From Taklimakanibacter lacteus (GTDB taxonomy: Bacteria > Pseudomonadota > Alphaproteobacteria > Rhizobiales > Aestuariivirgaceae), in the NCBI GenBank assembly GCA_003576695.1, contig QOZQ01000008.1, positions 186,001-250,000 of the forward strand: DNA of 64,000 bases, in the 5' to 3' direction. The notes under the pieces were generated by a model that made no database searches, had not been told where the DNA came from, and worked only from the letters and a program-made list of their open reading frames with translations. Shown piece by piece: positions 43,694 through 58,089 of this stretch (the stretch's first letter is position 1; the number at the start of each line of letters is the position of its first letter). The position numbers and the translations under genes are program-made.

Positions 43694-45052
43694 ATGGCAC
43701 GCAGAGCCCGCGCCGCGACAGCGGCGAAGAAAGGCCGGCCGGGCGCCGGTGATCCAGGCGAGATCGTTCTTCTGGTCTGGACCGACTATGTCGGCATTAC
43801 CCGCTGCCGGGGCGTTCCCGTGGCCCAGTTCAAGGACCGTCACGCCACCGGCCTTGGCTGGGCGGTTGCCGGCCAGGCGCTGACTCCCTTCGAGGATATT
43901 GCCGACAATCCCTGGGGACCGATGACCGAGGTGCGCCAGACGCCGGTGCTCGCGACCGAGACCCGCATCGCGATCTGGGACGATGCGCCGGCCTTCCATT
44001 TCGCGCTGTGCGATTCGATGCTTGCCGGCAGGAACTGGGATTGCTGCGTACGCGGTCTCCTCAAGGACGCGCTTGCCGACCTCGAGAGCGAGACCGGCCT
44101 CTCTCTCGCTGCCGCCTTCGAGCATGAATTCCTCCTCTCCGGCAACAACCTGCCCTGGATCGTGCCCTTCTCGGTCGAGCAGATGCGCATGGTGGCGCCC
44201 TTCACGAGCGATCTCACCCGGGCGCTGCTCATAGCCGATGTCGGCCTCGAAACGGTCGAGCCTGAATATGGCGTGCGCCAATATGAGATCTCGTGCGGCC
44301 CGGCGATTGGCGTCGCCGCCGCCGACCGTTGCGTGATCACCCGCGAGGTCATTCGCGAAACGGCGCGCCGCCTGGGCTTCCGGGCGAGCTTCACCCCCAA
44401 GCCCACCCCGACCAGCGTCGGCAACGGCGCCCATGTCCATTTCAGCCTGGTCGACGCCAAGGGCGTGAACCGCACCTTCGATGCGGGGCAGCCTGCGCAG
44501 ATTTCCATAGCGGCGCAGCGTTTCGCTGCCGGCGTCGTGCGCTACATGCCGGAATTCTGCGCGCTGGTGGCCCCCTCGCCCGTCTCCTATTTGCGGCTCG
44601 GCCCGCATCACTGGTCCTGCGGCTATGCCGCCTTCGGCGTGCAGAACCGCGAGGCGACGATCCGCGCCTGCCCCTCGCCCGATCCGGCCAAGTCGGCCAA
44701 GGCCTTCAATCTCGAGCTGCGCCCGCCCGATGCGACAGCGAGCCCCTATATGGTGTTGGCCGCCCTCGTGCGCGCCGGCCTCGAAGGCATTCGCCAGAAG
44801 CTGCCGCTGCCTGCGATGCTCGATCGCGATCCCGCTGATTATTCGCAGAGCGAGAGAGCAGCCCTTGGCGTGCGCCCCCTGCCTTCATCGCTCGGCGAAG
44901 CGCTCGACCTCATGCTGGCGAGCAAGACCGTTTCCTCCTGGCTGCCCGATGTCATGCGCGACTCCTATGTGGCGGTGAAGCGCAAGGAGATCGAGATGTT
45001 CGCCGAAGCGACGCCCGAAGCCATGTGCCAGAGATATCACGATGCCTATTGA
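43694..45052 (+). CDS. Glutamine synthetase-family ligase (gamma-glutamyl type)
   Basis: 452-residue enzyme of the class I glutamine synthetase fold, type GlnA-like/PuuA. It has the N-terminal beta-grasp region (IVLLVWTDYVGITRCRGVPV) and the catalytic barrel: FEHEFLL, EYGVRQYEISCGP, the substrate loop NGAHVHFSL, LRLGPHHWSCGYAAFGVQNR and NLELRPPDATASPYMVL. Key metal Glu and His residues seem kept. Such proteins mostly join glutamate to amines rather than ammonia. No tail with the adenylation site of true GlnA is evident. It overlaps the FluG-like amidohydrolase by 11 nt. GGGAGGAAA precedes the ATG. Confidence 0.9.
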   Translation: MARRARAATAAKKGRPGAGDPGEIVLLVWTDYVGITRCRGVPVAQFKDRHATGLGWAVAGQALTPFEDIADNPWGPMTEVRQTPVLATETRIAIWDDAPAFHFALCDSMLAGRNWDCCVRGLLKDALADLESETGLSLAAAFEHEFLLSGNNLPWIVPFSVEQMRMVAPFTSDLTRALLIADVGLETVEPEYGVRQYEISCGPAIGVAAADRCVITREVIRETARRLGFRASFTPKPTPTSVGNGAHVHFSLVDAKGVNRTFDAGQPAQISIAAQRFAAGVVRYMPEFCALVAPSPVSYLRLGPHHWSCGYAAFGVQNREATIRACPSPDPAKSAKAFNLELRPPDATASPYMVLAALVRAGLEGIRQKLPLPAMLDRDPADYSQSERAALGVRPLPSSLGEALDLMLASKTVSSWLPDVMRDSYVAVKRKEIEMFAEATPEAMCQRYHDAY

Positions 45053-46172
45053 GACGCTGCCGCTGATCGACCATCACTGCCACGGCATCTCGCCGGCGCA
45101 GCTCGACTGGAAGCAGTTCCAGGCGCTGTTCTCGGAAAGCTACCGCCCGCCGCCGCCCGGCACGAATGAATTCCAGAAGCCGCTCGGCCTCGCCATCCGC
45201 AGCTTCTGCGCACCGCTGCTCGATCTGGAACCGCATGTCTCGGGCGAGGCCTATGTGGAGAAACGCTTGGCCCTTGGTGCTGCCGAGGTGAACCGCCGCC
45301 TGATGCGCACTTCCCATCTAGACTGCCTCATCGTCGATACCGGCCATCGTTCCAGCGCCATTCACAGCTTCGAGGAAACCGGCGCCCTTGCCGGAAGGCC
45401 GGCACATGAGGTGGTGCGCATCGAGGCGATCATCGAGGAAGTCGCCGCCACCGGCGTCAGCGCGGAGAATTTCGCCAGGGCCTTTGCCGACCGGCTGGCC
45501 GAGCGCAGCGCCGGGGCCGTCGGCCTCAAATCGATCGTTGCCTATCGCTGCACTTTCGCCATTCCGCAGTCGGCGCCCGCCCCTGCGGAAATCGTCAAGG
45601 CCGTAGGCGCCTGGATGAAGGCTTCGCAGGCGGCGGGCAAGTTCCGCATCGGCGATCCAACCGTCATTCGCCATGGCCTGTGGGTCGGCGCCGAAATCTG
45701 CCGGGCGAAGAAGCTGCCATTGCAGCTCCATGTCGGCTTCGGCGACCCCGACATCTATATGCATGCCTGCGATCCGACCCACTTCACCGACTTCATCGCC
45801 GCCATGGAGAAATGGCAGGTACCGATTACGCTCCTCCACAACTGGCCGTTCCTCAAGGAAGCCCAATGGCTCTCCGAGGTGTTCGAGAATGTCTATTACG
45901 ATGCCGGCGTCATTCTCAATTATGGCGCCGCTGAATCCGAGAACATCCTTCGCGAGGCGCTGCAGATCGGGAAGTTCCAGAAATTCCTGTTCTCGACCGA
46001 CGCCTTCGGCCTGTCCGAGCTTTATTATCTGGGCGCCTTCCTGTTCCGCCGGGCGTTCCAGCGCATTCTCGACAGCTGGATCAGGGATGGCTTCTGCTCG
46101 GCGAAGGATGCGGACGAGATCGCAGCTCTCGTCGCCCGGACGAATGCGCGGCGTATCTATCAAGGCGTATGA
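45042..46172 (+). CDS. FluG-type amidohydrolase
   Basis: 376-residue TIM-barrel metal hydrolase of the amidohydrolase superfamily. It starts with the metal-binding LIDHHCHGISP, and later has GLKSIVAYR (carbamylated-Lys-like position), LPLQLHVGFGDPD, ITLLHNWPFLKEAQWLSEVF and FLFSTDAFGLSELYYLGA (metal Asp). This is the N-terminal half of fungal FluG, whose C-terminal half is a glutamine synthetase; here the two are separate but overlapping genes. It may hydrolyse a gamma-glutamyl amide or a related product. Confidence 0.87.
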   Translation: MPIETLPLIDHHCHGISPAQLDWKQFQALFSESYRPPPPGTNEFQKPLGLAIRSFCAPLLDLEPHVSGEAYVEKRLALGAAEVNRRLMRTSHLDCLIVDTGHRSSAIHSFEETGALAGRPAHEVVRIEAIIEEVAATGVSAENFARAFADRLAERSAGAVGLKSIVAYRCTFAIPQSAPAPAEIVKAVGAWMKASQAAGKFRIGDPTVIRHGLWVGAEICRAKKLPLQLHVGFGDPDIYMHACDPTHFTDFIAAMEKWQVPITLLHNWPFLKEAQWLSEVFENVYYDAGVILNYGAAESENILREALQIGKFQKFLFSTDAFGLSELYYLGAFLFRRAFQRILDSWIRDGFCSAKDADEIAALVARTNARRIYQGV

Positions 46173-46181
46173 GGACGCACT

Positions 46182-47342
46182 ATGAGCACACATGACGTGA
46201 TCGTCGTCGGCGCCGGCATTGCAGGTGCGGCGACCGCCTTCTTCCTGGCCGAGCGCGGCGCCAATGTCGCGCTGATCGAGATGAGCCACCCGGCCTCTGG
46301 CCCAACGGGGCGGTCATCGGCGGTGACCCACGCCTTCTATCTGCAAAGCGAGCTGTCGCGCCTCGCCATTGCCGGCGTAGGCACCTTGCGGCGCATCCCC
46401 GAGCTTACCAGCGAGGCGCCAGCGCACACAGAATGCGGCATGATGTGGGCCTGCGGCGCGGATTCGGCTCCGGCCTGGCGCGCCGCGGCGGAACGCATCA
46501 CCACGGAGGGGTCGAGGATCGAGCCCATGTCGGCCGATGAGCTGGCGCGCCAGGCGCCCGGCATCGATCTCGACGGCATCGCGCTCGCTTTGTGGGAAGA
46601 GGCCTATGGCTATGGCGATCCCTATGGCGCCACCCATGCTTTGGTGAAGGGCGCCCGTCAGCGCGGCGCCACGGTCTATCTCAACCGCAAGGTCACGCGC
46701 CTCGTCCAGTCTTCCGGCAGGATCACCGGAGTCGAGACCGCAAATGGCGACAAGCTTTCAGCTCCCATCGTCATATCGGCGGCCGGCGTGTGGACGAAAC
46801 CTCTGATCGCAGCTCAGGGCTATGAGCTGCCGATCCATGTCGAGCGCCATATCATGGCGGTGCTCGACGGCGGCGGCAAAGCGCGCGACTTCATGCCCTT
46901 CTCCTGGTGCGACGATCTCCTGTGCAATTATGCGCGTCCCGATGGCGACCGCGTCATCCTGGCGGGCGTCTGGGCGGGCGGCGGCACCGGTATCCGCAAC
47001 CAGACTCTGGCGCGCCCCGAGATCGTCACCGACCCGGATGACTACCGCGCCGAGACGGATGAGGATGAATGCCTCGACTCCTTGAGCTTCCTCCTGCCGC
47101 GCTTCCCGCGCCTCGCCGAGCTTGGCGTCCGGCCGGGCTATGCCGGCCTCTATGACATGAGCCCGGACGACAATCCGATCATCGGACCGGTGCCCGGCAT
47201 TGACGGGCTCTTCGTCATTTGCGGATCGAGCGGCCACGGCTTCAAGCTGGGCGCCGGCGTCGGTGAGGAAGTTGCCCGTCTCGTCACCGAGGGACGGTCC
47301 GAATTGCTGGCACCTTTCCGGGTCGATCGCTTCGCGGCTTAG
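46182..47342 (+). CDS. FAD-dependent amine/amino acid oxidoreductase (DadA/SoxB-like)
   Basis: 386-residue flavoprotein of the DAO family. N-terminal FAD site VIVVGAGIAGAATAFFLAERG, GPTGRSSAVTH, and the C-terminal YAGLYDMSPDDNPIIGPVPG and CGSSGHGFKLGAGVG. It would oxidise a secondary amine or D-amino acid such as sarcosine-like compounds. GAGGACGCACT precedes the ATG. Last of three rightward genes; the repeat after it probably ends transcription. Confidence 0.9.
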   Translation: MSTHDVIVVGAGIAGAATAFFLAERGANVALIEMSHPASGPTGRSSAVTHAFYLQSELSRLAIAGVGTLRRIPELTSEAPAHTECGMMWACGADSAPAWRAAAERITTEGSRIEPMSADELARQAPGIDLDGIALALWEEAYGYGDPYGATHALVKGARQRGATVYLNRKVTRLVQSSGRITGVETANGDKLSAPIVISAAGVWTKPLIAAQGYELPIHVERHIMAVLDGGGKARDFMPFSWCDDLLCNYARPDGDRVILAGVWAGGGTGIRNQTLARPEIVTDPDDYRAETDEDECLDSLSFLLPRFPRLAELGVRPGYAGLYDMSPDDNPIIGPVPGIDGLFVICGSSGHGFKLGAGVGEEVARLVTEGRSELLAPFRVDRFAA

Positions 47343-47446: not shown

Positions 47447-48205
47447 TTACGAGAAGACGATACCGCCATCGACATTGAGCGTCTGGCCGGTGACGAAGGC
47501 GCTGTCATCCGAGCAGAAGAAGGCGACGGGGCCTACGACATCCTCCGGATCGCCGATGCGCGCCATCGCGGTCTTGGCCGCCCAGGCATTGCGGATCGCC
47601 GGATCGTCGAGATTGACGCGGCCCATATCGGTGAGGATGATGCCGGGGCACACGCAGTTCGCGGTGATGCCGATGGGCCCGAGCTCCTGCGCCAGCACGC
47701 GGGTGAAGCCCATCACGGCGGCCTTCGAGGCCGAGTAATGGGCCTGCTGCGGCGCGCCATGCTTGCCGCCGATCGAGGCGATGTTGCAGATGCGCCCATA
47801 GGCCTGGCGCTTCATGACCGGCAGCACGGCCTGGATGACGAGGAACGTGCCCTTGGCATTGACATCCATGACGCTGTCCCAATGCGTTTCGGCCAGGGTC
47901 TCGACCGATGCGGCGATGAGGATGCCGGCATTGTTGACGACGGCATGGATGCCGCCGAGCTCGGCCACCGCCTTTTCGACCATCGCCTCGACCTCGATCT
48001 TCTGCGACACATCGGCATGGAGCGCCACGGCACGGCGGCCGAGGGCGTGCACGGCCGCGGCGGCCTCGTCGAGCGCCTTGGCCTGGCGTGGAATATCGTT
48101 CAAGGCGAGATCGAAGCCGCGCTCGGCGAGGCCCAGCGCAATGGCGCGCCCTATTCCCCGGCTGGCTCCCGTCACCAGCGCCACGCGTCCCTTTCCAACG
48201 GTCAT
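47447..48205 (-). CDS. SDR oxidoreductase (FabG-like)
   Basis: 252-residue short-chain dehydrogenase: TGASRGIGRAIALGLAERG, NNAGIL, Ser in ICNIASIGG, Tyr/Lys in HYSASKAAV and a C-terminal TGQTLNVDGGIVF. In this operon it most likely oxidises a polyol or ketose rather than working in fatty acid synthesis. The ATG at 48205 has GGAGACGAGG upstream; a GTG at 48220 is less likely. Last gene of the nine-gene operon. Confidence 0.9.
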   Translation of the reverse strand: MTVGKGRVALVTGASRGIGRAIALGLAERGFDLALNDIPRQAKALDEAAAAVHALGRRAVALHADVSQKIEVEAMVEKAVAELGGIHAVVNNAGILIAASVETLAETHWDSVMDVNAKGTFLVIQAVLPVMKRQAYGRICNIASIGGKHGAPQQAHYSASKAAVMGFTRVLAQELGPIGITANCVCPGIILTDMGRVNLDDPAIRNAWAAKTAMARIGDPEDVVGPVAFFCSDDSAFVTGQTLNVDGGIVFS

Positions 48206-48220
48206 CCTCGTCTCCTTCAC

Positions 48221-49711
48221 TTAGCCAAGCACGGTCTTCAGCGCCGGATAGAGCGCCTTGTAGCGGTGATAGATCTCGTCATAGAGGGCGGCTTCGCGCG
48301 GCCGCGGCTCGACCATCGATCCCGGCCGCACCATGGCGGCAATGCCGTCATCGATGGAGGCGAAGCGGCCGGCGCCATGCGCGGCCAGCACTGCCGAACC
48401 GGTCGAGGGCGCATCGGGCGAGGCCGGGATGCGCACCGGCAGGCCGGCCGTGTCGGCATGGATCTGCATCCACAGGCGCGACGCGGTGGCGCCGCCGCCG
48501 GCGGTGATCTCGGTGCTGCTGTAGCCGCCGGCCTTGAAGGCATCGAGAATGGCGCGCGTTCCGAAGCCGATGCCTTCCATGATGGCGCGGAAGATGTGAT
48601 GCGGCTCATGCGCCAGCGTCAGCCCGACAATGGCGCCGCGCGACAGGGGATCGGTATAGGGCGTGCGGTTGCCCTGGAAATGATCCTGGACGATGAGGCC
48701 GTCGGAGCCCGGCTCCAGCGCTTCGGCCTTGCTGTTCATCTCCGCGAGGTCGAGCGTACCGCCGGTGATGCGCCTCAGCCAGTTGATGATCGATCCGGTC
48801 GAGGTCTGCCCGCCTTCGACGATGAAGCGGCCCGGATAGACGATGTCGGGATAGGCGCCCCACACGCCCGGCGCATGGATGGGCGCCTCGGTGACGCCGA
48901 ACTGCAGATGCGATGAGCCGGTGATCAGCGCCAGCTGGCCGGGCTTCGCCACGCCGAGCCCGATCATGCCGATGAGCGCATCGGCCCCGCCCTGCACCAC
49001 CTTGACCTTTGGGCTGAGGCCCAGAGCGGCAGCCGCCGCCGAGGTCAGCGTGCCCACGACCGCGCCTGGTGCCACGACGCGCTGCGGCCATTTCCCTTCG
49101 AGATCGCTGATATCGAGGCGCTTGAGGATGCCCCGCGCCCAGCCGCCCTCGCGGCTCGAATAATGCCAGCGCAAGCCCACATTATCGAGCGAGGCGCAAC
49201 GCTCGCCGGTGAGCCTGAAAGTGAGGTAATCCTGATATTCGCAGATCGTTTCGGCGGCGGCGAAGACCTCGGGCTCGTGGCGCTTGAGCCACAGCGCCTT
49301 GGGGATCATCCATTCCGCCGAAACCGGCCCTCGCCCTGCCCCATTGATGGCGAGGCGCGCATCGCCCGTGGCAAGGACGGCATCGGCCTCTTCATGGGCG
49401 CGCACATCCATCCACAGAAGGGCCGGCCGCAGCGCCTGGCCGTTCTTGTCGAGCGCAACGACGGTGCAGCAGGTCGTCGCATAGGCCATCGCCTCGATCT
49501 GGGCGGCATCGATACGCGCCTCGGCAATGGCGCCGCGTGTCGCTGCGATCAGCGCCTGCCACCAGTCTTCGGGATTCTGCTCGGCCCGTGCGCCTGGAAA
49601 GAACCGCGTTTCATAGGGCACCGCCTTCGAGCCGAGGCACACGCCGTCAAGATCATAGATCCGCGCCCTGAGGCTTTCCGTTCCGCCATCCGCGGTCAGG
49701 TAATAGGCCAT
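48221..49711 (-). CDS. FGGY-family carbohydrate kinase
   Basis: 496-residue sugar kinase with the two actin-like halves. ADGGTESLRARIYDLDG is phosphate loop 1; PALLWMDVRAHEEAD, ICEYQDYLTFRLTGERCASL and the ATP-site AGGGATASRLWMQIHADTAG are also seen. GNRTPYTDPLSRGAIVGLTL points to the ribulokinase-like side of the family. Substrate not known: a ketose or polyol such as xylulose, ribulose or erythritol. Fifteen nt before the SDR. Confidence 0.9.
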   Translation of the reverse strand: MAYYLTADGGTESLRARIYDLDGVCLGSKAVPYETRFFPGARAEQNPEDWWQALIAATRGAIAEARIDAAQIEAMAYATTCCTVVALDKNGQALRPALLWMDVRAHEEADAVLATGDARLAINGAGRGPVSAEWMIPKALWLKRHEPEVFAAAETICEYQDYLTFRLTGERCASLDNVGLRWHYSSREGGWARGILKRLDISDLEGKWPQRVVAPGAVVGTLTSAAAAALGLSPKVKVVQGGADALIGMIGLGVAKPGQLALITGSSHLQFGVTEAPIHAPGVWGAYPDIVYPGRFIVEGGQTSTGSIINWLRRITGGTLDLAEMNSKAEALEPGSDGLIVQDHFQGNRTPYTDPLSRGAIVGLTLAHEPHHIFRAIMEGIGFGTRAILDAFKAGGYSSTEITAGGGATASRLWMQIHADTAGLPVRIPASPDAPSTGSAVLAAHGAGRFASIDDGIAAMVRPGSMVEPRPREAALYDEIYHRYKALYPALKTVLG

Positions 49712-49734
49712 TCGCTCCTCCCTCGTTCAAGAGC

Positions 49735-50070
49735 TCAAGCCGGAGACCGATAGGCCTCCAGCGCCTTGCCGGCATACATCACGGCGGGTCCCCCGCCCAT
49801 CTCGACCGCGACCTCCAGCGCCTCGACAAGTGCCGCCTCGCTCGCCCCATGCCGGATCGCGGCATCGACATGATAGAGAATGCAGTCCTCGCAGCCGGTC
49901 GCGACCGCGATGGCAACCGCCAGCAGTTCCTTGTCCGCCGCCTTGAAATGTCCCTCCTTCGTGGCGGCGCGGCTCACCTCGCTGAGCCCCTTCATGAGGC
50001 CAGGTGCTGCCTTGGCGAATGCGCCGAGGCGTGTCCTGGCGGCGGCGAGAGCTTGTTTCGTATCAGCCAT
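49735..50070 (-). CDS. Carboxymuconolactone decarboxylase/AhpD-like protein
   Basis: 111-residue all-helical protein with the AhpD redox motif CEDCILYH (Cys60, Cys63, His67). Such proteins act as disulphide reductases using lipoyl partners or as peroxidase helpers. In this operon the lipoyl protein is the next gene upstream, and the two overlap by 8 nt, so a redox link is plausible. Confidence 0.88.
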   Translation of the reverse strand: MADTKQALAAARTRLGAFAKAAPGLMKGLSEVSRAATKEGHFKAADKELLAVAIAVATGCEDCILYHVDAAIRHGASEAALVEALEVAVEMGGGPAVMYAGKALEAYRSPA

Positions 50071-51298
50071 GAACGACTCCTGTCAGAAGGCCAAGTGTTT
50101 CGCGTGGCGCATCCCAATGCGGCATATGCCCTGCCGACAGGAAATGCACCGCGACGCCGGATGGCAAGTTGAAGGCATGCGACGGTGGGATGATGCGATC
50201 ATCCTTGCCGATGAGCGCCCGCACCGGCAGCTGCTCGATAAGCTTTGCCAGCGGGCGCAGGATGTCGATGCGTTGTCCCTGCGGACCGGCCAGCGCGTTG
50301 GCCAGGGTCTTGAGGCGGCCCTGCGCCAGCTGCGCGGCCATCGCGGCGAGTGCCGCGTCCGAAAGCCCCTCGCCCTTCGGTCCGAGCATACGCAGCAGAT
50401 GCGCAACTTCCGCCGCTGTCGTTGCTTCGGCCATGCCGAAGATGAAGTCCTGCGCGATTTCGCGGCCCGTTCCGGCCGGCGCGACCAGCGTCAGGCTTGC
50501 CGCCTTGGCACCCAGTTGCTCGGCTATTCCCACGGCGACCGCAGCCCCGAGTGAATGGCCGACAAGATGAAGGGGACCGGCCAGTCCGGCGCTGAATTCC
50601 GCCAGAGCGGCAACGAGATCATCGAGATTTTGCGCCTCGGCCATGGTCGCGCCATGGGCGGGAAGATCGGGCACGATGGCGCAATGGCCGGCGCGCGCGA
50701 GACCGCTGGCCGTCGCCGCCCAGGTGCTGCGGTCCCCGGCAAATCCATGGATCAGCAGGAAGGTGGTGCTGCCTTCGCCGAGCTTGTCATAGGCGATCCG
50801 GCCGCTGGTGCGTCCGGTCCCGGACTGTGATGCTCGCTCGACATCCTCCCGTTCGATGCGGCCGCGCCGGCCAGTCCCCTGCAGCGCTTCCAGGGCAAGA
50901 CCGGCCTTCCGCGCCAGGCGGCGGGCCACCGGCGTCGCGCGCGGCCGCCCGCTGGTCAAAGGCGCAGGCGGCGGTGGCGCGCTTGCCGTGACGCCAGCCG
51001 AAGCCGGAGCATCGACGCTCGGCACATCAGCTGCCGCACTCTCCCAGTCATGCATATTCGTCACCACGGCCCGCGCGATCGGATTGCCGACCGTGACCCG
51101 GTCTCCGTCGCCGGCGAGTGTCTCCTCGAGCACGCCGTCGCCCAATGCCGGAAACTCGACCACCGTCTTGTCGGTCTCGATCTCGACGATCGCCTGGCCG
51201 CGCTTGAAGCTTTGCCCGGGAGAAACCAGCCAGCCGACGATGGTGCCTTCCTCCATCGTCTCGCCGAGCCGCGGCATGGTGAGTATGCGTGTGCTCAT
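50063..51298 (-). CDS. Lipoyl - E3-binding - alpha/beta-hydrolase protein (AcoC-like E2)
   Basis: 411 residues. About 3-78 form a lipoyl domain with the lipoyl Lys44 in IETDKTVVEF; 121-153 form a peripheral subunit-binding domain (TPVARRLARKAGLALEAL); 167-411 an alpha/beta-hydrolase with IHGFAGDRSTW, nucleophile Ser249 in LVGHSLGAAV and a late His near GHMPHWDAP. The normal acyltransferase domain of a 2-oxoacid dehydrogenase E2 is replaced by the hydrolase, as in AcoC of acetoin dehydrogenase. It overlaps E1 beta by 4 nt. Confidence 0.9.
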   Translation of the reverse strand: MSTRILTMPRLGETMEEGTIVGWLVSPGQSFKRGQAIVEIETDKTVVEFPALGDGVLEETLAGDGDRVTVGNPIARAVVTNMHDWESAAADVPSVDAPASAGVTASAPPPPAPLTSGRPRATPVARRLARKAGLALEALQGTGRRGRIEREDVERASQSGTGRTSGRIAYDKLGEGSTTFLLIHGFAGDRSTWAATASGLARAGHCAIVPDLPAHGATMAEAQNLDDLVAALAEFSAGLAGPLHLVGHSLGAAVAVGIAEQLGAKAASLTLVAPAGTGREIAQDFIFGMAEATTAAEVAHLLRMLGPKGEGLSDAALAAMAAQLAQGRLKTLANALAGPQGQRIDILRPLAKLIEQLPVRALIGKDDRIIPPSHAFNLPSGVAVHFLSAGHMPHWDAPRETLGLLTGVVHG

Positions 51299-52269
51299 GC
51301 GAGCAACCGCCCCGCCATTTCGGCGATGAGCTGCGGGCCGGGCACCGAACCGCTTTCGAGAGCCGGCGACACGGATATCGGAATATCCTCGCCCGCCACC
51401 CTGATCACCGGCTCTTCGAGGAAATCGAAGCACTCTTCCGAGATGCGCGCCGCGAGCTCGGCCGCGACACCGGCCGTCATCGCGCCCTCCGAGACCACCA
51501 TGGCGCGGCCGATGCGCTCGACATGCTCGCGGATCGTGTCGAAATCGAGCGGATTGAGCGTGCGCAGGTCGATGACGGTCGCCTCGATGCCTTTGGCCGA
51601 CAGCGCCTTGGCGGCGTCCATGACATAATGGAGCTGGCGCGAATAGGTGACGATCACCAGATCCTTGCCCTGGCGTCGCACCGCAGCCTTCCCCCAGGCC
51701 GGCGGCCTGGCGCCGAGATCCACATCTTCCTTCATCGTATAGAGCGCCTTATGCTCGATGAAGACGACCGGATCGGGCCTCTCCAGCGCCTGGCGCAGCA
51801 GGTGATAGGCGTCCGCAACCGTCGCCGGCATGGCAAGCCTGAGGCCCGGCGTGTGCATCACATAGGCTTCGAGACTCTGCGAATGCTGCGCGCCCGCCGA
51901 GCGCCCGGTGCCGCCCTGGGTCCTCAGCACCATCGGCACGCCGATCTGGCCGCCGAACATGTAGCGGATCTTCGCCGCCTGGTTCGCCAGCTGGTCCATC
52001 GTCATGCCAAGAAAATCGACATACATGAGCTCGGCCACCGGACGCAGGCCGGTCATGGCGGCGCCGACCGCCGCCCCGACAATGGAGGGTTCCGAGATCG
52101 GCGTATCGATCACCCGCTCAGGTCCGAATTCCTTGATCAGGTCCTTGGTCACGCCATAGGCGCCGCCATAGCGGCCGACCTCTTCGCCGAGGATGACGAT
52201 ATCGGGATTCTCGGTCATGGCATCCGCCAGCGCCTTGCGCAACGCGTCGCGGTAAGTCAGTTCAGCCAT
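51295..52269 (-). CDS. 2-oxoacid/acetoin dehydrogenase E1 beta subunit (AcoB-like)
   Basis: 324-residue TPP enzyme beta chain: TYRDALRKALADAMTENPDI, ILGEEVGRYGGAYGVTKDL, DTPISEPSIVGAAVGAAMTG and VVSEGAMTAGVAAELAARI. With E1 alpha it forms an alpha2beta2 TPP enzyme that gives the acyl or hydroxyalkyl group to the lipoyl protein. It overlaps E1 alpha by 8 nt and the lipoyl protein by 4 nt. Confidence 0.93.
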   Translation of the reverse strand: MAELTYRDALRKALADAMTENPDIVILGEEVGRYGGAYGVTKDLIKEFGPERVIDTPISEPSIVGAAVGAAMTGLRPVAELMYVDFLGMTMDQLANQAAKIRYMFGGQIGVPMVLRTQGGTGRSAGAQHSQSLEAYVMHTPGLRLAMPATVADAYHLLRQALERPDPVVFIEHKALYTMKEDVDLGARPPAWGKAAVRRQGKDLVIVTYSRQLHYVMDAAKALSAKGIEATVIDLRTLNPLDFDTIREHVERIGRAMVVSEGAMTAGVAAELAARISEECFDFLEEPVIRVAGEDIPISVSPALESGSVPGPQLIAEMAGRLLA

Positions 52270-53323
52270 TCTCTTGCTCCGTTGCGAGCACGCGGTTGAG
52301 GCGGGTGCGGACCGGCTCGGGCTCGGGCTCCGAGGGATCGAACACGTCGCGGAACATCGAGGCGAGCGGCGGCTCGTTCTGGGCGATGGTGAAATCGATG
52401 GTGGCATCCATTTCCCTGGCGATCTCGCTGTCGAGCGCATCGAGCTCAGCGGCCTTCACCAGCCCGCGCTCGATCAGCCTTGCGCGGGCGAATGCCACCG
52501 GGTCGCGCTGGCGGCCTGCTTCTTCCTCCGCCGCATCGCGATAGGGCGACTTGTCCTTGCGCGCATGGCCATAGAAGCGATAGCAGGACACGGCGAGAAA
52601 GCCGGGCTTGCCGGCACGTGCCGCATCCACCAGCCGGCGCGCAGCTTCCGCCACCTCCTCCACATCGAGCCCGTCCACGCTTTCGCCATTAAGGCCGAAA
52701 GCGATGGCGCGCTCATGCAGCGCGGTATTGGCGGTCGCCTGGTCGATCCGCGTGCCCATGCCATACTGGTTGTTGATGCAGGCGAAGAGCACCGGCAGGC
52801 CCCACAGCGCCGCCATGTTCATGCTCTCATAGAGTACGCCCTGCCCGGTGGCGCCATCGCCGAAGAACGCGACCGAAACAGCGTTGTTGCGCTTGCGCCG
52901 CGCCGAGAGACCGGCGCCGACAACGGCCGGAATGCCGCCGCCGACAATGGCATTGGCGCCGAGATGGCCGAGGCCCATATCGGCAATATGCATCGAGCCG
53001 CCCTTGCCATGGCAGTAGCCCGCTTCCTTGCCGCCGATCTCGGCCATCATGCGCTTTGGGTCGGCGCCGCGCGCCAGGAAGATGCCATGGCCTCTATGAT
53101 GGGTGGTGAAGGTGTCCTGCGGCTTCATTGCTGCGGTGATGCCAGCCGCCGCACTTTCCTCGCCGATCGAGAGATGCAGCATCGAGCCCGCCGTCTGCCC
53201 GCGCACGAAGAGTTCACCCACCCGCTCCTCGAAGCTGCGCACCCGGCGCATGGTGCGATAGAGCTCCGGCAGGTCGGAATTGGTTTTTGTGCCGGGAGCG
53301 GATGCCCCCTTTGGCTTGCTCAT
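52262..53323 (-). CDS. 2-oxoacid/acetoin dehydrogenase E1 alpha subunit (AcoA-like)
   Basis: 353-residue TPP-binding alpha chain: LYRTMRRVRSFEERVGELFV, FTTHHRGHGIFLARGADP, YCHGKGGSMHIAD and the TPP/Mg motif GDGATGQGVLYES...NNQYG. It starts 15 nt after the permease gene of the importer, which shows that the importer and the enzyme set are one operon. No E3 gene is present; the common lipoamide dehydrogenase is probably used. Confidence 0.93.
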   Translation of the reverse strand: MSKPKGASAPGTKTNSDLPELYRTMRRVRSFEERVGELFVRGQTAGSMLHLSIGEESAAAGITAAMKPQDTFTTHHRGHGIFLARGADPKRMMAEIGGKEAGYCHGKGGSMHIADMGLGHLGANAIVGGGIPAVVGAGLSARRKRNNAVSVAFFGDGATGQGVLYESMNMAALWGLPVLFACINNQYGMGTRIDQATANTALHERAIAFGLNGESVDGLDVEEVAEAARRLVDAARAGKPGFLAVSCYRFYGHARKDKSPYRDAAEEEAGRQRDPVAFARARLIERGLVKAAELDALDSEIAREMDATIDFTIAQNEPPLASMFRDVFDPSEPEPEPVRTRLNRVLATEQENG

Positions 53324-53338
53324 GCGTAACTCCGGAGT

Positions 53339-54331
53339 CTAGAGAAGATTGAGCTTCGTGGTGCGCGATACGACCGCGACCGCGGTCAGGATGATGATGC
53401 CTTTGACGATGGACTGGATATAGGTGTCCATCCCCAGAAGATTGAGCCCGTTGTTGATGATGCCGATGAACAGCGCGCCGAAGAAGGTGCCGACCACGGT
53501 CGCCGTTCCCGGGCGCAGCATGGTCATGCCGATGAAGACGGTGGCAAGCCCGTCGAGAAGATAGCGCTCGCCGGCATTGGGCTGGCCCGAGCCCAGCCGC
53601 GAGGCGAGCAGCATGCCGGCGACCGTCGCGAAGACGGCGCACACGACGAGCGCCGCGATACGGTATCCCCGCACATTGATGCCGGAGAGCTCGGCCGCCT
53701 TGCGGTTGCCGCCGACCGCATAGATGTAGCGCCCGAAGACGGTGCGCTCCATCACGAACCACGCGACGATGACCGCAATCAGCATCAGGATGGCAAGCAC
53801 CGGGACGCCACCGACCCGCCCCTGGCCCAGCCACAGATAGGCCTCGGGCAATCCGCCGTAGATCGCGCGCCCGCCGGTGAGGATGAAGCTGATTCCGAAC
53901 AGGATGGAGGCGGTTGCAAGTGTCGCGATCAGCGAAGGAATGCCGACGATCGTGACCAGCGCGGCGTTGACGCCGCCGATCACAAGGCCCGCCCCTATTC
54001 CGGCAAGCAGGGCCAGAGGCAGCGCCACGTCCTTGGTGAGAAGCAAGGGCACCAGGATGCCGGCGAGGCCGACCGCGAATCCGACCGACAGGTCCATCTC
54101 GCGCGCCGCGAAGCCGAAAGTGAGTCCGACGCCGACGATCGTCAGGATCGAGATCTGCTGCGCGATATTGAGAAGATTCTGCGGCTGCAGGAAGCGGTCG
54201 ACCGTGGCGGCGAAGATGAGGAAGATCAGCACCAGCACGACGACGGTGCTGTAGCGCTGGACATGGTCCTTGCGCACGATGCCGAGCACAAGGTCACGCG
54301 ACGGAGCGGTTCCGGCGCTCGTGGAGGTCAT
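53339..54331 (-). CDS. Sugar ABC transporter permease (RbsC-like)
   Basis: 330-residue permease with about nine helices of the RbsC/XylH type: NIAQQISILTIVGVGLTFGF, GGVNAALVTIVGIPSLIATL, GRYIYAVGGNRKAAELSGIN and GTFFGALFIGIINNGLNLLG. The start overlaps the ATPase gene by 4 nt. Confidence 0.92.
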   Translation of the reverse strand: MTSTSAGTAPSRDLVLGIVRKDHVQRYSTVVVLVLIFLIFAATVDRFLQPQNLLNIAQQISILTIVGVGLTFGFAAREMDLSVGFAVGLAGILVPLLLTKDVALPLALLAGIGAGLVIGGVNAALVTIVGIPSLIATLATASILFGISFILTGGRAIYGGLPEAYLWLGQGRVGGVPVLAILMLIAVIVAWFVMERTVFGRYIYAVGGNRKAAELSGINVRGYRIAALVVCAVFATVAGMLLASRLGSGQPNAGERYLLDGLATVFIGMTMLRPGTATVVGTFFGALFIGIINNGLNLLGMDTYIQSIVKGIIILTAVAVVSRTTKLNLL

Positions 54332-55848
54332 GCGGATTCTCCTGACATGGCGGTAATGAAGGCGCTCTCCGAGAATTGCGCCCTGGTGAGCTCCGGACCG
54401 GCCGCCTGGTTGACGAACGGGATGACGCGGTCGGCCATCGTTTCGATTTCGATCAGGTCGGAGGATGCGATGAGGATGGCGACGCCCAGGCCCGCAAGGC
54501 GGCGCATCTCGGCATAGATCTCGGCCTTGGCCCCCACATCGACACCTTCGGTCGGCTCGATGAAGATCATCACCTTGTAGCGGTTGCCGGCGCCATAGAG
54601 CCACTTGCCGATCGAGATCTTCTGCTTGTTGCCGCCGGAGAGCGTGTTGAGCTGCTGGGCCGAGGAATGGGCCTTCACATTGAGGAGCCGCATGATGCGC
54701 TGGGCTTCGCTTTCCTCGCGCCGGCGCGACAGCACGCCCGTCGTCAGCACCGCGTGCTGGGGATGCACCATGGCCAGGTTCTCGCGCAGCTCCCATTCCC
54801 CGATCAGGGCATTCTCCATCCGGTGATCGGGAACCAGCGCCACGCCCATGTCGCGCATGGTCCGCGCTCTGTGCAGTGCTACGGCACGCCCGCCCACCTC
54901 GCAACTCTCGTAGTGCACGCCCGCCGGATTGTAGAGCGAGCGGGCGAAGCCGAAATGTCCGGAGCCCGTGAGGCCGATGAGGCCGACAATCTCGCCGGCG
55001 CGGATATGGAATTGCGGCACCTGCAGCCGCCCGGCCCGCCAGCCTTTGACGCTGAGCGCGACAGCGCCCTCGGCGCGGGCGGCGGCAGCTGCCTGTTCCT
55101 TGGACTTGCCGCTTTCGCCCGACCGCCGCAGCATGAGATCGACGAGCTGGCTTTCGCTCAATCGGCCGGCCGCTTCGGTCACCACATGGCGGCCATCGCG
55201 CAGCACCGTGATACGGTCGCTCAGCGCCTTGATCTCGGACAGGAAGTGACTGATCAGGATCACCCCCACGCTCTGCCTGGGCAGGCTGCGGATGATGCTC
55301 CACAATTGCTCCTTCTCGCGCGCCGGCAATGTGGCGGTGGGTTCATCGAGGATGAGCAGACGGATATCGCCACGCAAGGCGCGCACGATCTCGATCACCT
55401 TGCGGTCGGCGACGGGCAGGCTTGCCACCGGTTCGGCAAGATTGATGACGACTTGCGGAAACCAGCGCTTCACCAGCGCGGCCGCGTCGTTCCTGAGCTT
55501 CCCCGCGGCGATCACCCCCGCACGGCGTGGTTCGGCGCCGAGCAGGATATTCTCGGCGCCGCTCAACCCCGCCACCAGGCTACCTTCCTGGCTGACATGG
55601 GCGATGCCGCGCAGGAGCGCATCGCGCGGGCTCTTCAGGCGCACGCTTTCTCCGCCGATGGCGATCGAGCCCGAGGTCGGTGGCAGGCTGCCACCGAGGA
55701 TATTGACGAGTGTCGACTTGCCGGCCCCGTTCTCGCCGATGAGGCCATGCACTTCATCGACACGGAAGGTGACGCTCACGCGGTCGAGCGCGCGCGTTCC
55801 CGGGAATTGCATGGTGATGTCGGTGAGGCACGTTTCCATTTCGGCCAT
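54328..55848 (-). CDS. Sugar ABC transporter ATP-binding protein (RbsA-like, double ATPase)
   Basis: 506 residues, two ATPase halves. Half 1 has Walker A GENGAGKST and Walker B LLILDEPTATL but a weak signature (LPVADRKVIEIVRAL). Half 2 has a degenerate Walker A (GLTGSGHFG) but a full signature LSGGNKQKISIGKWL and IFIEPTEGVD, where the Walker B Asp is Ile-Glu. This asymmetry is typical of RbsA. ATG 55848 is used; the frame runs to a TTG at 55860. Confidence 0.9.
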   Translation of the reverse strand: MAEMETCLTDITMQFPGTRALDRVSVTFRVDEVHGLIGENGAGKSTLVNILGGSLPPTSGSIAIGGESVRLKSPRDALLRGIAHVSQEGSLVAGLSGAENILLGAEPRRAGVIAAGKLRNDAAALVKRWFPQVVINLAEPVASLPVADRKVIEIVRALRGDIRLLILDEPTATLPAREKEQLWSIIRSLPRQSVGVILISHFLSEIKALSDRITVLRDGRHVVTEAAGRLSESQLVDLMLRRSGESGKSKEQAAAAARAEGAVALSVKGWRAGRLQVPQFHIRAGEIVGLIGLTGSGHFGFARSLYNPAGVHYESCEVGGRAVALHRARTMRDMGVALVPDHRMENALIGEWELRENLAMVHPQHAVLTTGVLSRRREESEAQRIMRLLNVKAHSSAQQLNTLSGGNKQKISIGKWLYGAGNRYKVMIFIEPTEGVDVGAKAEIYAEMRRLAGLGVAILIASSDLIEIETMADRVIPFVNQAAGPELTRAQFSESAFITAMSGESA

Positions 55849-55909
55849 CGCAAGGCTCAAAATAAGAGGAGCGGCGCCGCCAGGGCAACGCCGCTCCCTT
55901 ATAAGTGGC

Positions 55910-56854
55910 TTACTTGAGGAAGTCCTTGCAGTTGCGCTTGGTCACCAGCGGCGCGTCCATATAGACGGTCTTGGCCGGGACGACCTCCTCCGTCGGCTTG
56001 CCGTTGACGACGATCGCCTCGATCCATTCGCCAAGCATCTTGCCCATGCCCTCGAAGGGCTGCGAGACGGTGGCGATCATCATGCTGTCGGGCTTGCAGA
56101 CTTCGGCGACGGCTTGCGGATGTCCATCGATGCCGATGACCTTCACATCCGTGATCCCCGCCGCCTTGAGCGCGTTGATCGCGGCCTGCGCCGGCTCATC
56201 CCAGGGCGCCCAGACGGCGTTGATTTCCTTGCCGAAACGGGCGGCATAGTCTTCCATCGTCTTCGAGGTGTCCTCGAAGAAGGCGGTGTAGTCGATATTA
56301 TGCTCGGCCAGCACCTTCACATCCGGATATTCCTTCAGCACCTGCGCCATCACGTCGCCGCGCTTGCGCGTGCCGTGATGCTCGGCCATGCGCAGGAAGA
56401 CGATGTTGCCCTTGCCGCCCAACTGGTCGAGCAGATAGGGCGAGACGTCGGCCGACATGGCCCAGTTGTTGGTGGTGATGTCGGCGACCACGCCATCGAC
56501 ATAGCCCGAATCGACCGCGAAGACCGGGATCTTGGCGGCACGGGCCGCATCGAGCGCCGCGCGCGAGGCGCGCAGATCCGCCATGGTGATGATGATGGCA
56601 CCAACGCCGCGGCTCGCCGCGTCCTGGATGTTGGACGCGGTCTGCTCGCCCGAGCCGCCGCTGTCGAGCAGATTGACCTTCCAGTCGCCCTTGTTGGTTT
56701 CCTTGAGCCAGGCATCGAAGCCGGCCTTCACGCGCTGTTCCGACTGCGCTGCGGCATTCGAGTGAACCCAGGCGATATCGAGCGCATTCGCGGGCATCGC
56801 CATGACACCTGTCATCAGGACAGCCGCTATCATTCCGGCAAACCGGGTTTTCAT
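55910..56854 (-). CDS. Sugar ABC transporter substrate-binding protein (RbsB-like)
   Basis: 314-residue periplasmic protein: signal peptide (MAAVLMTGVMAMPANA-like, cut about residue 24), then DIAWVHSNAAAQSEQRVKAG and the ribose-binding fold (GVGAIIITMADLRASRAALD, IPVFAVDSGYVDG, VWAPWDEPAQAAINALKAAG, GIDGHPQAVAEV). GGGAGGAAATTAGAC before the ATG at 56854. First gene of the operon; it defines the unknown sugar or polyol. Confidence 0.92.
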   Translation of the reverse strand: MKTRFAGMIAAVLMTGVMAMPANALDIAWVHSNAAAQSEQRVKAGFDAWLKETNKGDWKVNLLDSGGSGEQTASNIQDAASRGVGAIIITMADLRASRAALDAARAAKIPVFAVDSGYVDGVVADITTNNWAMSADVSPYLLDQLGGKGNIVFLRMAEHHGTRKRGDVMAQVLKEYPDVKVLAEHNIDYTAFFEDTSKTMEDYAARFGKEINAVWAPWDEPAQAAINALKAAGITDVKVIGIDGHPQAVAEVCKPDSMMIATVSQPFEGMGKMLGEWIEAIVVNGKPTEEVVPAKTVYMDAPLVTKRNCKDFLK

Positions 56855-56946
56855 GTCTAATTTCCTCCCATCGGGCAAAATCGTTAGTGCTTGCGGCGGG
56901 GTGGATTTACCCGTCCGCGATCATGAAATTAAGGGTCGTATTACAA

Positions 56947-56976
56947 TTGTCAACATGAAATACATTTGTCATGACA
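56947..56976. promoter_or_regulatory. Candidate regulator site and -35 region between SorC gene and sugar operon
   Basis: TTGTCA occurs twice (56947-56952 and 56966-56971, 19 nt apart), and TGTCATGACA (56967-56976) is a perfect palindrome. On the minus strand TTGACA (56953-56948) could be the operon's -35 box. The spacing puts the repeats on one face of the helix, fitting a regulator dimer or tetramer. Evidence is limited to pattern and position in the 218-nt divergent gap. Confidence 0.4.
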
Positions 56977-57072
56977 TGCTGACGAGCCCGGCTGCGCGTC
57001 GGGTATTTCGAAGCTCAATCTTTTGAGGCAGTTACCTGTCGCGCTCGAATCGGCTCAATTCGGTTCCGGGCG

Positions 57073-58089
57073 ATGGGATTTGGAGAGAAGGTCGTGCCGC
57101 AGGACAGAGAACCCGCCCTCGAGGATGAGATGCTGATGGCGCGTGCCGCCTGGCTCTATTATGTCGGCGGCCTCAACCAGGAAGCGACCGCCAGGCGCCT
57201 CGGCATCACCCGCGCGCGGGTCAACAAGCTGCTTCAGGACGCGCGCGAGACCGGCCTCGTCAGCATCACGATCAACCCGACCAATGTCGGCCTCTTGCCG
57301 GTGGAGGAAGAGATCCGCATCAGGTTCGGGCTCGATTTCTGCATCTGCACGCCGGCTCTCGGATCAGACCGCAAGGGGGACGAAGCCAGCGAAGTCCTGC
57401 AGGGTTTTGCTTTCCGCGCCGTGGGCGCCGCGGCCGCATCGCATCTGCGTAGCCATCTCGCCGAGAAGGAAGATGCGGTGATCGGCACGGGCTGGGGCCG
57501 CACGTTGCAGCAAATGACCTTGCAGCTCGCCGGTGTGAAGGCGCCGCGCGCGCGGTTCATCAGCATGATGGGATCGCTGACCGCCAACTCCGCCTATAAT
57601 CCCTTCGAGGTGGTGCATGCTTTCGCCCGCGCGACTGGCGGCGAAGGCTTCGTGCTGCCGGTGCCCTTCATCGCCGACAGTGTCGAGGACCGCAAGGTCC
57701 TGCTGTCGCAGCGCAGCGTGCAGCGGGCGCTCGAGATCGGCCGCTCGGCGACCGTCGCCTATATCTCGATCGGCGAGCTCACCGAGGACTCCCTGCTCCG
57801 CCGGCAGAAGATGCTGACCTCGGCCGAGCTTGTCGAATTGCGGGCTGCGGGCGCGGTCGGCGACACCAATGGCATCTTCTTCGACGATGATGGCCGCCCG
57901 GTCGATCACCCGCTCAATCATCGCACTCTGGCGCTCGGCCTGGATGAGTTGCGGAAGGCCAATGCGGTGGGCCTCATTGCCGGGCGCAGCAAGCTGCGCG
58001 CCGCGCATGCTTTCCTCAAGAGCGGCACGGCCAGGGGCCTCATCATCGATGGCGATACGGCGCTACTCCTGATGAAGGAGATAAGATAG
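57073..58089 (+). CDS. SorC/DeoR-type sugar-responsive transcriptional regulator
   Basis: 338-residue regulator. Residues 20-60 hold a helix-turn-helix (NQEATARRLGITRARVNKLL); 65-338 form the SorC effector-binding domain (EEIRIRFGLDFCICTPA, GTGWGRTLQQMTLQL, GAVGDTNGIFFDDDGRPVDH, LIIDGDTALLLM). Related proteins answer to phosphorylated sugars, so the operon's FGGY kinase product is the likely signal. Divergent from the nine-gene operon, which it probably represses. ATG 57073 is used; a GTG at 57094 has AAGG nearby and is possible. Confidence 0.9.
   Translation: MGFGEKVVPQDREPALEDEMLMARAAWLYYVGGLNQEATARRLGITRARVNKLLQDARETGLVSITINPTNVGLLPVEEEIRIRFGLDFCICTPALGSDRKGDEASEVLQGFAFRAVGAAAASHLRSHLAEKEDAVIGTGWGRTLQQMTLQLAGVKAPRARFISMMGSLTANSAYNPFEVVHAFARATGGEGFVLPVPFIADSVEDRKVLLSQRSVQRALEIGRSATVAYISIGELTEDSLLRRQKMLTSAELVELRAAGAVGDTNGIFFDDDGRPVDHPLNHRTLALGLDELRKANAVGLIAGRSKLRAAHAFLKSGTARGLIIDGDTALLLMKEIR

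Follow-up and report, generated by a model that had tools for sequence, protein, structure and literature searches.

How a sugar importer, a carbohydrate kinase and an acetoin-dehydrogenase-type complex work together in one operon is the question raised by positions 47447..58089 of the window analysed here, a 64,000-nucleotide stretch of the genome of Taklimakanibacter lacteus (assembly GCA_003576695.1, contig QOZQ01000008.1, positions 186,001 to 250,000). The ten genes of the locus are open and stop-free where they were placed, and Pfam and NCBIfam agree with the family labels that had been given to them in a sequence-only reading. Nine genes lie on the minus strand in the order RbsB-RbsA-RbsC-E1alpha-E1beta-lipoyl/hydrolase-AhpD-FGGY-SDR, where E1 depends on thiamine pyrophosphate (TPP), the lipoyl/hydrolase protein is an AcoC-type E2, and SDR is a short-chain dehydrogenase/reductase. 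A SorC/DeoR-type regulator is transcribed divergently. We tentatively favour, with slightly less than even confidence, the reading that the operon encodes a self-contained route for breaking down one polyol or ketose, in which a kinase step would be followed by TPP/lipoyl cleavage to acyl-CoA and an aldose phosphate, and in which the substrate would most likely be a 1-deoxyketose.

The search of a genome-contig collection identified 222 relatives of E1alpha, from which the best 80 loci were kept. Judged by record titles, nearly all of them are alphaproteobacterial, one exception being a Granulosicoccus locus (L111). Fourteen of 150 whole genomes searched, including that of T. lacteus, contained a match, and stretches from 12 of these were fetched. 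Because the resulting 92 loci (the best 80 of 222 and the 12 relatives) were picked by E1alpha similarity, the locus counts describe close relatives only. Removal of 23 loci in which E1alpha was flanked by less than 6.5 kb on one or both sides left 69 full-flank loci, and removal of two with E1alpha DNA identical to that of another locus (pairs L025/L097 and L093/L095) left 67 distinct loci. The final counts were obtained with tblastn; earlier counts from the picking of open reading frames (ORFs) are lower bounds, since antisense ORFs had displaced real ones.

E1beta and the AcoC-type E2 are present in all 67 distinct loci, the FGGY kinase in 64 (63 at an identity of at least 50%) and the SorC regulator in 62, whereas window-type RbsB was found in 46 and AhpD in 41. 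The kinase, counted at an identity of at least 45%, shares the strand of E1alpha in 63 of 63 loci. The SDR occurs in 45 of the 67 loci and a psicose-3-epimerase-like protein in 12, and the two never occur together (0/67; hypergeometric P about 1e-7, phylogeny ignored). No other gene cluster is constant; the largest unlabelled cluster, an antisense ORF, reached 19 of 92 loci in the ORF-picking counts, which are lower bounds. Since the importer is variable, and so is the first enzyme, with the SDR and the epimerase-like protein never co-occurring, the fixed core of the locus consists of the kinase and E1/E2. The mutual exclusivity fits alternative entries to one ketose, which would be reached from a polyol through the SDR or from another ketose through the epimerase. 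The sequence-only reading had treated the nine genes as one possible route; its kinase and E1/E2 part stood as the fixed core, and the importer and SDR proved exchangeable. The proposed catabolism of a polyol or ketose with a TPP-lipoyl step gains support from the conservation of this core.

The search for the same gene set in other genomes, which the sequence-only reading had suggested, showed that the layout recurs in many genera, and the arrangement is therefore not due to chance. Record titles place the locus in Rhizobiaceae, Rhodobacterales, Azospirillum and plasmids. In an evenly drawn sample of the class (385 genomes, that of T. lacteus included), the kinase was found in five genomes (E 1e-130 or better) and E1alpha in two (E 1e-120 or better). 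Among 72,556 plasmid records, nine contain E1alpha, and the three of these that were examined all have the operon layout. On the Rhizobium hidalgonense plasmid pPR19E03 (L116), which is typed as conjugative, the operon reaches the kinase, where the record ends. The annotation of the three examined records gives the locus only general labels, among them pyruvate dehydrogenase E1, hydrolase and carbohydrate kinase. No published assignment of a homologous operon was seen among the matches listed from the open-access literature (in one case 20 of 234), a coverage that leaves most subscription journals and preprints outside; passages of PMC3245297, PMC9870897 and PMC3870299 do not describe the operon.

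The relatives fall into several types. The main type consists of RbsBAC, E1alpha and E1beta, E2, often AhpD, the FGGY kinase, and one or two SDRs; the second SDR, present in 41 of the 69 full-flank loci, is absent from the window operon. In the second type, the SorC regulator, the psicose-3-epimerase-like protein, E1alpha and E1beta, E2 and the FGGY kinase are oriented divergently to a RhaS/LsrB-like importer that has two permeases. Loci of this type often add DhaK/DhaL, an aldo-keto reductase and a FucA-like aldolase, and their epimerase, solute-binding protein (SBP), mutarotase and aldolase all score below NCBIfam equivalog cut-offs. The third type (L028, L029 and L151 (G164)) has a FucA-like aldolase and an FGGY_C_2-type kinase beside the core, with a FucU-like protein in L028 and L029, and the fourth (L027, L030 and L031) has E1/E2 without an FGGY kinase in reach. 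Locus L091 combines RbsBAC and the RhaS/LsrB-like importer at a single core and regulator, with DhaK nearby. Three loci (L148, L149 and L150) contain kinases at 53-56% identity without E1/E2 seen, so that the kinase lineage extends beyond the loci in which it is paired with E1/E2. In L148 (G394) a FucU-like protein, a UgpC-type ABC ATPase, an aldo-keto reductase and an FGGY_C_2 kinase were found, and no E1/E2 was seen.

The E1/E2 genes resemble those of AcoABC operons, which likewise encode E1alpha, E1beta and an AcoC-type E2 that has both a lipoyl and a hydrolase domain. Unlike those operons, the window locus has an E1 of a distinct clade, a sugar importer, an FGGY kinase, an SDR and a SorC regulator, and none of its ten genes is AcoX-like by Pfam and NCBIfam labels. 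Operons for acetoin carry AcoR, which the window operon lacks. The T. lacteus genome (5.78 Mb in 24 contigs) encodes four AcoC-type E2 proteins above cut-off. The best of them (477 bits) adjoins E1alpha and E1beta genes that follow a gene encoding an NAD-kinase domain, considered AcoX-like from this domain and its position (locus C4), whereas the E2 of the window scores 321 bits against the AcoC model NF011457 (cut-off 307). The genome encodes five paralogues of window E1alpha, which share 37-43% identity with it (42% for the AcoA-like one from locus C4). In the E1alpha tree the 26 family rows form one clade (support 100/99) that includes neither the locus C4 protein nor the other paralogues; the program cautions about long branches meeting, and the comparison set consists of the genome's own paralogues, with no characterised AcoA included. 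Residue H75 of E1alpha, basic and invariant in 92 of 92 rows, and R123 and H156 of E1beta, basic and invariant in 90 of 90, are not basic in the five paralogues; E1alpha R255 and K258 are also invariant (92/92), with one paralogue basic at each. These residues are compatible with an anionic substrate and may hold a phosphate. The dihydrolipoamide-dehydrogenase-like protein of the genome, identified by eye, has no match in the 69 loci, and the window E2 retains the E3-binding domain (PF02817); therefore, E3 must come from elsewhere. The same genome contains a second, sugar-linked AcoC-type E1/E2 set (L134, G000:C20:222000-241000), next to a HexR/RpiR-type regulator, a class II ketose-bisphosphate-type aldolase and a XylB-like FGGY kinase, and a further AcoC-type E2 with E1 genes in another context (L133, G000:C19:358000-375000).

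Clues to the substrate come from RbsB, the kinase, the SDR and the variant loci. The nearest solved structures to RbsB are 3l49 and 4wt7 at 24-25% identity, with ribose-binding proteins close behind in the same list, and the predicted model has a mean pLDDT of 89.7. The structure 4WT7 was solved with allitol, and sorbitol was modelled in its pocket with five polar contacts given (PMC10318746). Three of the four alignable contacts are retained in RbsB (R187, D268 and Q290 correspond to R165, D243 and Q265) and R89 is replaced by glycine, in a mapping that uses a deduced numbering offset of 17 and leaves the fifth contact outside the aligned stretch. Both FGGY domains of the kinase (132 and 133 bits) exceed the Pfam gathering score. 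Its nearest match in the Protein Data Bank by sequence and by fold is the Yersinia enzyme 3gg4/3l0q, deposited as glycerol or xylulose kinase, and the ribulokinase 3qdk ranks third by sequence and second by fold; the mean pLDDT of the predicted model is 84.4. The kinase falls below the cut-offs for XylB (301 of 380 bits), ribulokinase (273 of 428) and pentulose kinase (260 of 409). Among the 25 matches listed for the SDR, only the broad subfamily models NF009466 and NF005559 are above cut-off, and the acetoin reductase model is below it (210 of 304 bits). The RhaS/LsrB-type SBP, FucU-like and FucA-like proteins of the variant loci, all below cut-offs, belong to families that include handlers of methyl-ended sugars, which we count in favour of a predicted 1-deoxy substrate.

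Based on the observed gene order, protein families, conserved core and operator sequence, a pathway can be proposed. The Rbs-type ABC importer would take up a polyol or ketose, and the SDR would oxidise the polyol to the ketose. The FGGY kinase would then place a phosphate on the far end of the ketose. The TPP-lipoyl enzyme probably acts on this phosphorylated ketose, because the kinase and E1/E2 are fixed and the importer and SDR are exchangeable. TPP on E1 would attack the ketose carbonyl so that the C2-C3 bond is broken, the acyl group would pass to lipoate and on to CoA, and the aldose phosphate would be released, with E3 supplied in trans. The SorC-type protein would control the one divergent operator, with the phosphorylated ketose as its likely effector. 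The ketose would most likely be a 1-deoxyketose such as a 1-deoxypentulose, so that cleavage would yield acetyl-CoA together with a triose or tetrose phosphate. Several points favour a 1-deoxyketose: it would supply an acetyl group, as acetoin does when cleaved; its phosphate cannot, by general knowledge, be a normal transketolase donor; and the variant loci contain the families just named. The AcoC type of the E2 also speaks for a 1-deoxy substrate. No additional dedicated enzyme would be required for these products, which fits the lack of another constant cluster. We infer the order of steps, substrate, products and effector from the genes; of these, the identity of the substrate is the least secure.

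A narrower proposal, that E1/E2 is an acetyl-transferring 1-deoxyketose-phosphate dehydrogenase (for example, 1-deoxyxylulose 5-phosphate + CoA + NAD+ -> acetyl-CoA + glyceraldehyde 3-phosphate) and the operon a dedicated 1-deoxypentitol/1-deoxyketose route, is doubtful. If it were true, the reaction would in chemical terms be a catabolic counterpart of 1-deoxyxylulose 5-phosphate synthase. Plant isoprenoid precursors and radical-SAM waste (5-deoxyribitol, which is a 1-deoxypentitol) would be possible sources. Rats are reported to excrete 5-deoxyribitol (PMC6079011). The favoured reading, if right, would add a type of cleavage to sugar catabolism, in which a complex of the acetoin-dehydrogenase type acts after a kinase and takes the place of an aldolase or transketolase. 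A locus now annotated generally would gain a substrate class, and the fate of 1-deoxy sugars and polyols would become directly testable.

Known systems that share parts of the locus suggest other explanations. A second acetoin/2,3-butanediol operon is hardly credible: the E2 passes the AcoC model only barely and the SDR matches acetoin reductase models below cut-off, and an acetoin operon would leave the importer, kinase and SorC regulator without a role. Since an AcoX-AcoABC-like locus is present elsewhere in the genome, the operon is not an ordinary acetoin operon, as the sequence-only reading had already suggested, and this candidate was rejected. The Lsr system resembles the locus in its SorC-type regulator, FGGY kinase and Rbs-type importer. 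It handles a 1-deoxy substrate and has no known counterpart of the E1/E2 complex or the SDR. A route that takes up and degrades autoinducer-2 or another 1-deoxy-diulose, with the kinase as LsrK, the regulator as LsrR, the SDR reducing the diketone and E1/E2 replacing LsrF, would explain why LsrR, LsrK and LsrA/C/D are lower-ranking matches of the regulator, kinase and importer, and why the SBP of the second variant matches both RhaS and LsrB. However, the scores lie far below the cut-offs of the Lsr models (kinase 164 of 528, regulator 100 of 486 and variant SBP 111 of 384 bits) and other families outscore them, so that this function is very unlikely. The general Pfam and NCBIfam scans, made with no dedicated search, named neither LsrF nor LsrG among the window genes.

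The erythritol (ery) and related alphaproteobacterial polyol operons also have an FGGY kinase, an Rbs-type importer and a SorC/DeoR-type regulator. The ery operons are not known to include E1/E2, and dehydrogenases and isomerases handle the carbon skeleton. EryA is an alphaproteobacterial FGGY function (PMC3245297). Salvage of 5-deoxyribose (the dihydroxyacetone phosphate (DHAP) shunt) and the L-fucose and L-rhamnose pathways share with some variant loci a FucA-like aldolase, and act on methyl-ended sugars. These pathways rely on aldolase cleavage to DHAP and an aldehyde, and a FucA-like aldolase makes acetaldehyde from 5-deoxyribulose 1-phosphate (PMC6079011), whereas the constant cleavage enzyme of our loci is of the TPP-lipoyl type. 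The kinase and importer might form one branch, with E1/E2 converting a small aldehyde or ketone (acetaldehyde, lactaldehyde or acetol) from a later aldol cleavage to acyl-CoA. The third locus type, with its aldolase, FGGY_C_2 kinase and, in two of three cases, FucU-like protein, speaks for such a division, which we nevertheless consider improbable: a FucA-like aldolase accompanies eight of the 69 full-flank loci, none of which has the window-type RbsB, and it is therefore not obligatory in window-type loci. The favoured scheme could also run on an ordinary ketose phosphate, giving glycolyl-CoA (or glycolate through the hydrolase domain) and an aldose phosphate. TPP chemistry would allow this cleavage, and the structures closest to the kinase carry the deposited names xylulose kinase and ribulokinase. 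Xylulose or ribulose 5-phosphate, however, enter central metabolism already, and no further constant cluster, hence none for glycolate, accompanies the core, glycolate genes not having been searched by name; we give an ordinary ketose little credence.

Several observations weigh against the favoured reading, catabolism of one ketose through a kinase and TPP/lipoyl cleavage. Three kinases occur without E1/E2 and three E1/E2 loci without an FGGY kinase in reach. The scheme has no need of the DhaK/DhaL, FucA-like aldolase, FGGY_C_2 kinase and aldo-keto reductase of the variants, and does not explain the second SDR. The kinase passes no NCBIfam cut-off, and the FucA, FucU and RhaS families also serve non-deoxy sugars. 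The phosphate-binding role of the E1 residues is deduced from sequence, with no structure behind it. The operator is absent from most epimerase-type loci, and a hairpin follows RbsB.

The regulator is below the NCBIfam cut-offs for both DeoR (169 of 420 bits) and LsrR. A putative paired operator, two copies of the consensus ACAWWTGT, is located between the regulator gene and RbsB. Among 59 regulator-RbsB intergenic regions, with that of the window included and near-duplicates kept, 41 contain at least one box and 17 a pair, the spacing being 19 bp in 17 of 17. The T. lacteus genome contains no second paired site at up to three mismatches (the reversed-pattern control also gave 0), and a wider regulon acting through this operator was therefore rejected. 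The 25 sequences scanned with a matrix built from 17 sites, including that of the window, included 14 loci with the epimerase-like gene, of which 11 lacked a site, L112 had a weak match (15.6 bits) and L036 and L087 had clear matches; among the other ten loci, the site was clear in L107 and weak in L151 (17.7 bits). The second locus type therefore probably uses another operator. The clear sites in L107, L087 and L036 directly precede E1alpha. In L036 (9905), the RbsB-type operator stands right before E1alpha though the adjoining regulator is of the other type (SorC, 40%). The promoter scan gave two matches against a shuffle mean of 1.4, none of them ahead of RbsB.

The close packing of the nine same-strand genes, described earlier as mostly less than 25 nt of gap or overlap, was confirmed from the gene coordinates: seven of eight junctions are overlaps or gaps of less than 25 nt (RbsA-RbsC overlap 4; RbsC-E1alpha 15; E1alpha-E1beta overlap 8; E1beta-E2 overlap 4; E2-AhpD overlap 8; AhpD-FGGY 23; FGGY-SDR 15). 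Translations point to ATG starts at 56854 for RbsB, 55848 for RbsA, 52269 for E1beta and 48205 for the SDR. The reading as one regulated unit is supported, and cotranscription is predicted. The sole exception is the 61-nt gap between RbsB and RbsA, which carries a strong hairpin. It came from a scan that found nine terminator-like sites against a shuffle mean of 4.8 (standard deviation 2.8), and it may lower downstream expression and so uncouple the expression of the binding protein from the rest.

Features of the operon and its regulator, with positions in the window.
Feature	Position	Strand	Support
SorC/DeoR/LsrR-type sugar-binding regulator, divergent	57073..58089	+	Pfam Sugar-bind PF04198, 176 bits
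Putative paired operator ACAAATGT + ACAATTGT	56939..56972	-	19 bp apart; second overlaps TTGACA-like -35
RbsB-type solute-binding protein	55910..56854	-	Pfam Peripla_BP_4
Terminator-like hairpin, RbsB-RbsA gap	55867..55898	-	14 pairs, 10 G-C
RbsA-type ABC ATPase	54328..55848	-	Pfam/NCBIfam
RbsC-type permease	53339..54331	-	Pfam/NCBIfam
TPP-dependent E1 alpha	52262..53323	-	PF00676
E1 beta	51295..52269	-	PF02779 + PF02780
AcoC-type E2: lipoyl domain, E3-binding domain, alpha/beta hydrolase	50063..51298	-	NF011457; PF00364, PF02817, PF12697
AhpD-like carboxymuconolactone-decarboxylase-family protein	49735..50070	-	PF02627, ahpD_dom
FGGY carbohydrate kinase	48221..49711	-	PF00370 + PF02782
SDR oxidoreductase, last gene of the operon	47447..48205	-	PF13561

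Adjacent genes for an Amidohydrolase-2 protein and an FAD-dependent oxidoreductase, on the plus strand at 45042-47342, converge on the end of the operon, to which no link is shown.

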